The notes beneath the pieces were generated by a model that was not told the DNA's origin, searched no databases, and saw nothing but the letters and a program-made list of their open reading frames with translations. This document shows positions 14,275 through 41,719 of a DNA stretch of 64,000 nt, piece by piece (position 1 is the stretch's first letter; every line of letters begins with the position of its first letter). Origin of the DNA: Alphaproteobacteria bacterium (GTDB lineage Bacteria; Pseudomonadota; Alphaproteobacteria; Rs-D84); the NCBI GenBank assembly GCA_015062495.1, contig SUUN01000002.1, positions 1 through 64,000 of the forward strand, read 5' to 3'. The position numbers and the translations under genes were made by a program.

Positions 14275-14348
14275 TTTATTTTAACCTTTTTTCGATGTCT
14301 TCAATTAACTATGGTGTTAATCTCTACCTTATTCTTAAATTTAAGAGA

Positions 14349-14427
14349 ACATTACAGATGCGTGGTTGTTGGCAAGTGCAGTGTACAAAAGTTACATAAA
14401 CGCGCCAACAACAAGCAGATGTGATGT
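14349..14427 (-). repeat. GUGUACAAA-loop hairpin element, copy A
   Basis: Long imperfect inverted repeat with GTTGTTGGC (14366-14374) pairing GCCAACAAC (14404-14412) around a GCAGTGTACAAAAGTTACAT centre. It lies 11 bp after the rpsM stop, between rpsM and rpsK. Copies B and C are at 31199-31281 and 40284-40365. Confidence 0.7.
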
Positions 14428-14437
14428 TATATTAAAT

Positions 14438-14815
14438 TTATTTCCCTTTGGTTGCAGAACCGGCCACCACAATACGCTTCCCCTTACGTGTACGCGCATT
14501 TGTCTGGGTACGCTGACCACGAACCGGCAAGCGGTTACGATGGCGAATACCACGATATGCCTTTAAATCCTGCAAACGTTTGATGTTCATTGTGACTTCA
14601 CGACGAACGTCACCTTCTACCTTAAAGTTCTCTTCGATATATTTCGAAATTTTAATAACATCCTCGTCTGTCAGATCTTTTGCGCGCAGACCGTCTTTTA
14701 ATTTCAACGCCTTCACAATCTGTGCCGATTTTGCCGGCCCAATACCATGAATATACTGCAACGCAATTTCGATACGTTTTTCAGTCGGAATGTTAACACC
14801 TGCTATACGTGCCAT
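14438..14815 (-). CDS. rpsM: 30S ribosomal protein S13
   Basis: 125 aa. Starts '[19 protein letters not shown]', has '[13 protein letters not shown]' (helix-two-turn-helix) and the basic tail '[15 protein letters not shown]' that reaches the decoding-site tRNAs. S13 sits on the 30S head and contacts L5 across bridge B1b. It follows secY after 151 bp; the usual adk, infA or rpmJ genes are missing from that gap. RBS AAAAGGAAAA. Confidence 0.98.
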
Positions 14816-31079: not shown

Positions 31080-31198
31080 GGAAAATATGGGAAAAAACCT
31101 TAAAAAACCCGCTTGAAAACCCCACAAAATCAGGATTTTACAGCAAACACCAAAAATGACAAATTTTCAATCAGTCTACTTTTATAAAAATAAAAGAT

Positions 31199-31281
31199 AA
31201 TGGCGTAGATATGGTATGGGGGCGACATCGTAGTGTACAAACGCTACATGAGATGTCGCCCCCGCCCATAGATATGCCATT
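31199..31281 (-). repeat. GUGUACAAA-loop hairpin element, copy B
   Basis: AATGGC...GGGGGCGACATC pairs with GATGTCGCCCCC...GCCATT around GTAGTGTACAAACGCTAC. It sits 14 bp downstream of the stop codon of the barrel gene at 31295, and shares ends (AATGG / AGATATGCCATT) with copy C. Confidence 0.75.
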
Positions 31282-31294
31282 AGATTTTATTTTA

Positions 31295-32044
31295 TCAAAA
31301 ATCAATTCCGAACATCACCCCCATCGTCGCCGGGCTGTTCTTGAAACTGTGCACAACATCTTTTTCCAAATAAAAGCCCAAATACTTGGTCGCATCAATA
31401 TTATAATTAATTCCGCATTGCAATCTCAGCCGTTCCCCATCATAGTAATCATCAAACAAATCAAAATCAAACATCAATCCGCCAACCCAGTTCCAGCGAT
31501 TATTAACAATATACTGTCCCTGAATACCGACGGTCATCGCCCACGCATCAAATGTATCTTGTGGCAAATCATCGTTCAGATAATCCACCTGCACCACCCC
31601 TGCAACGGTCCAATTGTCTGTTATGCGTCCCATTCGCGCACCCGCCGTCCAATTATATGCAACCGTCTGTAAATTTTCACGCGTATCATAGATTTGTTTT
31701 ACATCACCATAAACCTCGGCATGCAATTGATTTTCATGCCACAAATCCCAATCAAACCCAAATTCCAAATCATTCCATGACCATTTTCCAAATTCTGGAT
31801 TATCCGATGAATCATAAGACCCCGATGTCGCCACATGAATCGCAAAGGCATCAGATACCCCATACCCAAATTCATCGGCAATAACAAATCTGTCAAATTC
31901 AGAATTTGCTTGCAACGGCGTTAAAATATTATAAAACCGCCCCTGTGCCGGATTATAAAACGGATTACCATTTATTACATTGGCGGCCCCTGCCCCACCC
32001 GACACAAATGCCAGCGCACACGACAAAAGAAAAATTTTTTTCAT
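31295..32044 (-). CDS. Outer-membrane beta-barrel protein, paralogue 1
   Basis: 249 aa. Signal peptide 'MKKIFLLSCALAFVSGGAGA', then a mature start 'ANVINGNPFYNPAQGRFYN', shared with the next gene upstream. Alternating aromatic beta strands ('WTVAGVVQVDYLND', 'YNIDATKYLGFYLEKD') run to a C-terminal 'MFGIDF' ending in Phe, the signature of Bam-inserted barrels. About 10-12 strands are expected. It is probably a small porin-like or structural outer-membrane protein; substrate unknown. Its close tandem relation to 32165-32932 indicates duplication. Confidence 0.8.
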   Translation of the reverse strand: MKKIFLLSCALAFVSGGAGAANVINGNPFYNPAQGRFYNILTPLQANSEFDRFVIADEFGYGVSDAFAIHVATSGSYDSSDNPEFGKWSWNDLEFGFDWDLWHENQLHAEVYGDVKQIYDTRENLQTVAYNWTAGARMGRITDNWTVAGVVQVDYLNDDLPQDTFDAWAMTVGIQGQYIVNNRWNWVGGLMFDFDLFDDYYDGERLRLQCGINYNIDATKYLGFYLEKDVVHSFKNSPATMGVMFGIDF

Positions 32045-37798: not shown

Positions 37799-37875
<77 letters not shown>

Positions 37876-40235: not shown

Positions 40236-40283
40236 TAAAAATCCCAAAAACACTTCAAATTCTGGGGGAATAAAATTCAAGAA

Positions 40284-40365
40284 AATGGTATAGATGCACG
40301 CAGTGCCGACAACGCAGTGTACAAAACGTACATAAGTTGTCGACACCGCTTGCAGATATGCCATT
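40284..40365 (-). repeat. GUGUACAAA-loop hairpin element, copy C
   Basis: AATGG...CGACAAC pairs with GTTGTCG...GCCATT around GCAGTGTACAAAACGTACAT. It abuts the fabF stop codon (40366) and also lies downstream of the convergent gene at 40235. Shares 5' and 3' ends with copy B. Confidence 0.75.
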
Positions 40366-41616
40366 TTATTGGATTTTTTTAAGGACCAGCGACGCGTTTG
40401 TTCCACCAAAACCGAACGAATTACTCAACGCCACATCCACCTTGCGTTTTTTTGCAACATGCGGCACAAGGTCAAAATCCCCCACCGCATCTTCGGGGTC
40501 ATCCAAGTTAATTGTTGGTGGCACAATACCATCACGAATTGCGCACGCACAGAATATCGCTTCGACCGCACCGGCCGCACCCAACAAATGCCCCGTCACA
40601 GATTTTGTTGACGACATCGATACCGGCGCATCACCAAACAGACTTTGCACCGCCGCCAATTCACCAACATCACCCAAACCGGTCGATGTACCATGCGCGT
40701 TGATATAATCAACGTCGGCTGGATTAACACCCGCATCTTTTAACGCGGCAATCATTGCACGTTTGCCACCTTCGCCATTTGGCGATGGTGCTGTAATATG
40801 ATATGCATCACCTGACATACCGTAACCTGCAACCTCGGCATAGATTTTTGCACCGCGTGCAACAGCATGTTCATATTCTTCCAGAACCAGGACACCTGCC
40901 CCTTCGGCCATGATAAATCCATCGCGTCCCTTGTCCCATGGGCGTGATGCCGCCGCCGGATTATCGTTGCGCGTACTTAATGCCTTCATCGCCGAAAATC
41001 CAGCCAGCGCAATACGACTGACCGCACCTTCGGTGCCACCACAAATCATAATATCTGCATCACCATATTTTACCATACGTGCTGCTTCGCCAATTGAATG
41101 GGCACCGGTTGCACATGCCGTCACAACGGAAATATTTGGCCCCTGGAAACCATATTTAATTGAAATATTACCCGCCGCCATATTAATAATCCCCTTGGGG
41201 ATAAAAAACGGACTAACGCGACGTGGACCGCCGATATGCAGTTCAATACAGTTATCATAAATCGTATTAAATCCACCAATACCACTGCCAACTGATACAC
41301 CGATACGTGTTTTATCACCATCATATGTATCCAGCCCGGCATCTTTGATGGCTTCGTCCGCCGCCACAATGCCATATATTTCACATTTATCCAGTTTGCG
41401 CTGTTCACGGGCATCCACCACCGCGTCTGGGTTATATTGACCGGGTTCAGTTCCATATTCTGGGACACCTGCGATTTGCGATGCCAAATCATCTACTTCG
41501 AATGAATCAATCTTTTTAACCCCAGACTTTCCCGCCAGGATATTTTTCCACGCATGCTCAACACCTGTTCCAACAGGGGACACAATACCCATACCGGTAA
41601 TAACAACTCTTCTCAT
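40366..41616 (-). CDS. fabF: 3-oxoacyl-ACP synthase II
   Basis: 416 aa from the ATG at 41616 ('MRRVVITGMGIVSPVGTG') with AAAAGGA 9-10 nt upstream. Condensing enzyme that elongates acyl-ACP with malonyl-ACP. Cys nucleophile in 'VTACATGAHSIGEA', His in 'INAHGTSTGLGD' and 'KSVTGHLLGAAGAVE' are all present. It lies directly downstream of acpP, whose product is its substrate carrier, separated by a hairpin. Confidence 0.98.
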   Translation of the reverse strand: MRRVVITGMGIVSPVGTGVEHAWKNILAGKSGVKKIDSFEVDDLASQIAGVPEYGTEPGQYNPDAVVDAREQRKLDKCEIYGIVAADEAIKDAGLDTYDGDKTRIGVSVGSGIGGFNTIYDNCIELHIGGPRRVSPFFIPKGIINMAAGNISIKYGFQGPNISVVTACATGAHSIGEAARMVKYGDADIMICGGTEGAVSRIALAGFSAMKALSTRNDNPAAASRPWDKGRDGFIMAEGAGVLVLEEYEHAVARGAKIYAEVAGYGMSGDAYHITAPSPNGEGGKRAMIAALKDAGVNPADVDYINAHGTSTGLGDVGELAAVQSLFGDAPVSMSSTKSVTGHLLGAAGAVEAIFCACAIRDGIVPPTINLDDPEDAVGDFDLVPHVAKKRKVDVALSNSFGFGGTNASLVLKKIQ

Positions 41617-41653
41617 AATATATATTCCTTTTGTATAACTAACATACGCCCAT

Positions 41654-41683
41654 ATGATATACTGTTTCCCACGAAAAAGACAA
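41654..41683 (-). promoter_or_regulatory. Candidate fabF promoter
   Basis: Minus strand TTGTCT (41678-41683), an 18-bp spacer and TATCAT (41654-41659), inside the acpP-fabF gap. Confidence 0.45.
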
Positions 41684-41689
41684 TAAAAA

Positions 41690-41719
41690 AATCCGCCTGC
41701 ACAATTGCCCAAGCGGAAA
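41690..41719 (-). terminator. Intrinsic terminator after acpP
   Basis: TCCGCTTG-N10-CAGGCGGA followed by TTTTTTT on the minus strand. It may attenuate read-through from acpP into fabF. Confidence 0.8.

Follow-up and report, generated by a model that had tools for sequence, protein, structure and literature searches.

An ERIC-like hairpin repeat placed behind stop codons in gut Alphaproteobacteria

Known hairpin repeats and the wider family

How the ERIC repeat moves and what it does have been open questions since its description around 1990-91. ERIC (also IRU or RU-1) was described in Enterobacteriaceae and Vibrionaceae (PMC10969869) and has TA termini with a short TIR and a target duplication (PMC2229807). 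Like ERIC, the element studied here is an imperfect, intergenic, multicopy hairpin of similar size (ERIC is about 127 bp) that is mobile and has no known transposase, and both have an apical stem, a GA/GA internal loop, a G.T-closed 5-bp helix and a short loop. Unlike ERIC, the element has neither the ERIC core GCTTACATAAGTAAG (the ERIC1R/ERIC2 primer sites) nor the TATACCC/GGGTATA ends, and it is therefore regarded as ERIC-like and not as ERIC. Its apical loop has one T more in the left strand, its outer stems are A/T and contain AGAT/AGAT loops, and it further differs in being strictly placed and oriented relative to stop codons, in forming tandem arrays and in apparently replacing terminators.

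Three other systems are comparable in part. The REP/BIME (RAYT) sequences are also intergenic palindromes, and part of the REPs lie no more than 15 nt from stop codons (PMC12306157). However, REPs are 20-40 bp (PMC3733652), shorter than the element, and the Y1 transposase is absent from the source genome and from 113 of 115 relatives, the other two having one. The betaproteobacterial repeat element (BRE) is likewise an intergenic repeat, of about 90 bp, that occurs in tandem, but it is GC-rich and its orientation is not tied to replication according to its authors (PMC3110155); it is set apart here by description only. Integron attC sites are hairpins directly behind stop codons in one orientation, as is the element, whose ends on reading contain no GTTRRRY/RYYYAAC boxes and whose neighbours are scattered core genes, not cassettes.

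The apex pattern was multicopy, with zero control matches, in Chromobacterium haemolyticum, a Balneolales MAG, a gammaproteobacterial MAG (22 copies), Fukatsuia (17) and a termite Rickettsiales MAG (11). Folding and whole-genome counts indicate that many of the non-alphaproteobacterial matches are genuine multicopy repeats; those in Flavobacteria, Paenibacillus and Clostridium fold poorly and were rejected as chance. The inspected outside copies fold as long hairpins with the GA/GA plus G.T module, which is common to ERIC and to the Chromobacterium, Balneolales, Methylophilus and termite Rickettsiales repeats. Scores against our covariance model were 91-46 bits for Rickettsiales, 37 for Balneolales, 34 for the gammaproteobacterial MAG, 33 for Methylophilus, 29 for Chromobacterium and 25 for Fukatsuia. 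Random class and phylum samples hold few copies, so the distribution is patchy. Placement and orientation are looser in these other hosts, and mixed orientation was seen.

The Chromobacterium repeat (56 copies; L325-L344) is a hairpin of 140-170 bp with the same apex. In the Balneolales MAG (G172; L029/L061), which lies outside Proteobacteria, an ERIC-like hairpin repeat is present 45 times. E. coli ERIC gave no match to the covariance model of the alphaproteobacterial element. The Fukatsuia copies share 74% identity over 129 bp with an unannotated E. coli repeat, CCCCAGGAGC..GTGACTGGGGTGAG, in which the core was recognised by the ERIC primer sequences; judged by this similarity, the Fukatsuia copies are ERIC. 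A cross-phylum hairpin superfamily with ERIC as one branch, moving without a dedicated Y1 or reverse transcriptase (by a replication-polar single-strand route or template switch), inserting at stops and domesticating itself as terminators, is conceivable but improbable.

Copies and their placement

The host group is gut Alphaproteobacteria, Candidatus Enterousia and its kin. The source genome consists of 900 kb in three contigs, and the window, the whole 64,000-nt stretch that was analysed, is C2:1-64000. An earlier note on this DNA had proposed three hairpins of ~80 bp with a common apex. The positions and the apex were borne out: the exact apex AGTGTACAAANNNTACAT occurs three times in the window, in copies A, B and C only (Table 1), where it reads AGTGTACAAA..TACAT, and looser matches (3 mismatches) were as frequent as expected by chance (3 vs. 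2.75). The extent was too short, as an A/T-rich outer stem continues past the GC arms; by covariance model extents, the hairpins are 107-117 nt long.

Table 1. Element copies in the window and parts of copy B
Feature	Position	Strand	Description	Evidence
Copy A	14333..14447	+	behind stop of rpsM (S13), minus-strand gene 14438-14815	covariance model, E 4.7e-19, 95 bits; fold; gene context
Copy B	31184..31300	+	stem 31187-31293; behind stop of minus-strand gene 31295-32044	covariance model, E 8.1e-25, 118.6 bits; fold
Copy B GC-rich arms	31219..31264 (approximate span)	+	GGGGGCGACATC / GATGTCGCCCCC	sequence, fold
Copy B apex	31230..31252	+	GTA/GA internal loop, G.T-closed 5-bp helix GTGTA/TACAT, loop CAAACGC	invariant pairs
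Stop codon beside copy B	31295..31297	-	TGA	sequence
Copy C	40269..40384	+	behind fabF, minus-strand gene 40366-41712	covariance model, E 5.6e-23

On the plus strand, the outer stem is A/T-rich and is either AATAAAAGATAATGGTAT / ATGCCATTAGATTTTATT or of a second type. Inward of it lie an AGAT/AGAT internal loop, in which tandem G.A pairs are possible, the variable GC-rich arm and the apex, which consists of the GTA/GA loop, a five-pair helix closed by G.T and a loop of 6-7 nt. The element core is GTGTACARANNNTACATGA. Model pairs 50-54/62-66 are invariant, and the G.T is present in 16 of 16 copies. Folding is weaker in the mRNA sense for all 16 copies (copy B, -62.3 kcal/mol on the plus strand and -53.8 on the minus strand). 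The plus strand owes its lower energies to G.U and G.A that are fixed in its outer stem and apex. Read as mRNA, the conserved modules are mismatched, with C.U in place of G.A and A.C in place of G.U. Rfam matched only tRNA in the window at the gathering threshold and gave no plausible sub-threshold match to the element at a relaxed one. The sole Rfam or ARAGORN match in the window is a tRNA-Pro (CGG) at 37799-37875.

A pattern search of the source genome (≤2 mismatches) gave 17 matches on the plus strand and 3 on the minus strand; the reversed control pattern gave 1 and 3, respectively. The genome-wide covariance-model search that the earlier note had proposed, run with a model made from 16 element copies, returned 18 strong full-length copies, all on the plus strand: 17 in C2 (14 to 222 kb) and one in C3. 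Copies in this genome are confined to one chromosome arm. The minus-strand model matches are the same palindromes read from the other strand. Near-identical copies occupy unrelated sites (31184, 83873 and 174565). A shortened derivative without the apex half lies beside the dnaN copy (C2 67715-67787), and a degenerate copy is found at C2 69147-69263.

Genes on C2 were called by longest ORF. In all 15 independent sites, a minus-strand gene has its stop codon at the right end of the element, at most about 18 nt from the model end, and the stop-codon rule with fixed orientation noticed in the window thus holds genome-wide. The gap to the other neighbour ranges from 24 to over 200 nt, and the stop-adjacent zone of leading-strand genes makes up 8% of the intergenic DNA. 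Some copies hold the stop codon within the stem; the outer stem of copy C contains the TAA of fabF. The preceding genes, named by inspection, are a mixed core set (rpsM, fabF, efp, dnaN, ftsK, trxB, yebC, addB, secB and others), and the gene beside copy B encodes, by inspection, a secreted or outer-membrane-like protein. A preference for TAA (14/15 sites vs. 80% of genes) was not informative.

GC skew marks the minus strand as leading at the element sites of the source genome. The skew of this genome (G000) is about -0.2 in C2 0-245 kb and +0.15 in C1 0-190 kb, and it is near zero across the remaining half. The covariance-model search found no copy in C1 0-190 kb, and a simple lagging-strand rule was rejected, as it fails for this strongly and oppositely skewed region.

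The element is present in 104 of 142 sampled genomes of the family, with 0-26 matches each, and is dense enough in these genomes for single insertions to be tracked. Among 133 copies listed in 15 genomes, mixed orientation was found in none of the 31 contigs with at least two listed copies (73 copies beyond the first). Nearly all related loci have the same stop-codon offset, and nearly every one has negative local GC skew. Many sites are orthologous between relatives, above all behind efp, and tandem arrays reach up to four units. At the efp and dnaN sites, the arms differ between close species. Occupancy behind dnaN is patchy: it takes six changes on the tree, of which well-supported branches require at least four, and the occupied G155 is sister to the empty G049 with support of 99/98. 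No target-site duplication was definable. Among close relatives, no empty site was found whose flanks match those of an occupied one, and TA is present at some element ends only.

Transcript ends and mobility

In 30 of 30 empty efp and dnaN sites, the stop is followed within about 70 nt by an ordinary hairpin-plus-T terminator. Beyond the element, one was found in only about 5 of 30 occupied sites (p 5e-12 vs. empty). Occupancy and terminators were called by eye where the pattern script missed diverged copies; these calls comprise six occupied sites with diverged copies, three terminators that were retained and an imperfect terminator at one empty site (L282). In the source genome, an ordinary terminator follows the stop at 2/15 element sites vs. 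34/80 others (p 0.04). Terminators are thus present at empty sites and mostly absent at occupied ones, indicating a probable role of the element in ending or protecting the transcript. The element is not itself an intrinsic terminator of the usual form: no GC-rich stem with a T run directly after it was found, and the GC arms lie inside a base formed by an A/U-rich mismatched stem with a T-rich tail. Termination could be Rho-dependent, because Rho is present. The loss of terminators could also be a by-product of insertion.

We favour, at a probability of roughly 0.55, an ERIC-like nonautonomous mobile hairpin that inserts behind stops and takes over 3'-end formation. The element would insert in one orientation directly behind a leading-strand stop, between stop and terminator, and its long hairpin, U-rich in the 3' arm, would become the 3' end of the gene, as a terminator, a 3'-end protector or both. 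The ordinary terminator may decay once the hairpin has taken over, and copies would multiply in tandem and between sites. The element offers sharp rules that can be tested, namely, a stop codon, one strand, one orientation, a lost terminator and arm exchange at the apex.

A plain selfish repeat without host function would agree with the near-identical copies at unrelated sites, the tandem arrays and a copy number that varies widely, down to zero. Insertions would then have been purged except where they lie behind a stop and ahead of a terminator that can be dispensed with, and the insertion event itself would remove or displace terminators. Purging, however, does not account for the single orientation or for the fact that other intergenic DNA and lagging-strand stops are avoided, and most sites have no other terminator, yet transcripts must end. 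We consider this explanation unlikely.

Another possibility is a replication-polar single-stranded DNA element that moves as the plus-strand hairpin, which carries the G.A and G.T modules, with insertion at the fork setting the strand bias. The constant association with leading-strand genes, the negative skew around related loci and the restriction to one strand of modules that are common to ERIC are consistent with this. The explanation is nevertheless doubtful, given the copy-free, oppositely skewed part of C1, the rarity of Y1 transposases among the relatives and the mixed orientation in other taxa. No reverse transcriptase was found in the element-rich genomes G000 (the source genome), G047, G059 and G115. 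Y1 transposase and reverse transcriptase were both rejected as mobilisers, being absent from the source genome. A reverse transcriptase gene occurs in 38 of 115 genomes of the genus, mostly as frames of 330-390 aa, possibly of retron or defence type.

Covariation and turnover of the arms

The covariation of the arms proposed in the earlier note was confirmed. In the covariance alignment, both sides had changed in 31 of 41 pairs, and none of 500 shuffles was as strong. The covariation score was 0.49, vs. 0.17 for shuffled and about 0.1 for slid alignments, and 92.5% of cells were paired, vs. 75% and 37-46%, respectively. Random positions and orientations without covariation, the outcome that the note had named as speaking against it, did not occur.

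Its conclusion that compensatory divergence implies selection on structure, taken as RNA structure, found no support in the form given. Classical compensatory RNA evolution proceeds via tolerated wobble pairs and should enrich G.U on the functional strand. The 78 distinct arm pairs contain 1,254 Watson-Crick pairs, 41 G.U and 56 A.C, so that G.U is not enriched over A.C (p=0.15), and changes on both sides (107 cells) are much more frequent than changes on one side that leave a standard pair (28). Among 111 copies, the arms are well matched in 82 and poorly matched in 15. Most of the latter are recognisable chimeras, in which the left arm of one copy and the right arm of another, of two types, are joined at the apex; a few are second units that have the GCAAGGGG module as their left part.

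The lack of G.U enrichment and the poorly matched, mostly chimeric copies favour a DNA-level reading, and block replacement with palindrome correction accounts for the covariation better than point-by-point selection on RNA pairing does. Under the favoured mobile-hairpin reading, arms would be renewed when copies exchange sequence at the conserved apex and template switching then corrects the palindrome, which would keep them complementary without base-by-base selection. Template switching is known to create and repair hairpins (PMC8794818) and, although we infer this step, appears to fit the arm pattern better than classical compensatory evolution does.

A cis-acting regulatory or stabilising element of the mRNA 3' untranslated region, selected for RNA pairing and inherited mainly by descent, would suit the strong covariation and the fixed spot behind stops of core genes (rpsM, efp, dnaN, ftsK and fabF) that recurs at orthologous sites, but it is quite unlikely, given the G.U counts, the mismatched modules and weaker fold in the mRNA sense, the patchy occupancy, the chimeric copies and the absence of the element from about a quarter of the relatives. 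Strong covariation in a hairpin thus need not mean selection on RNA structure.

A motif, GC[AT]AGGGG (gene sense), follows elements and separates tandem units; it often forms the loop of a small hairpin, the stem of which varies. All six of its intergenic plus-strand occurrences in C2 adjoin elements (66337, 69133, 129868, 138924, 163283 and 169149). Of the efp and dnaN sites, 14 of the 30 occupied ones have it and none of the 30 empty ones, and it also occurs in the arrays L026, L088 and L177.
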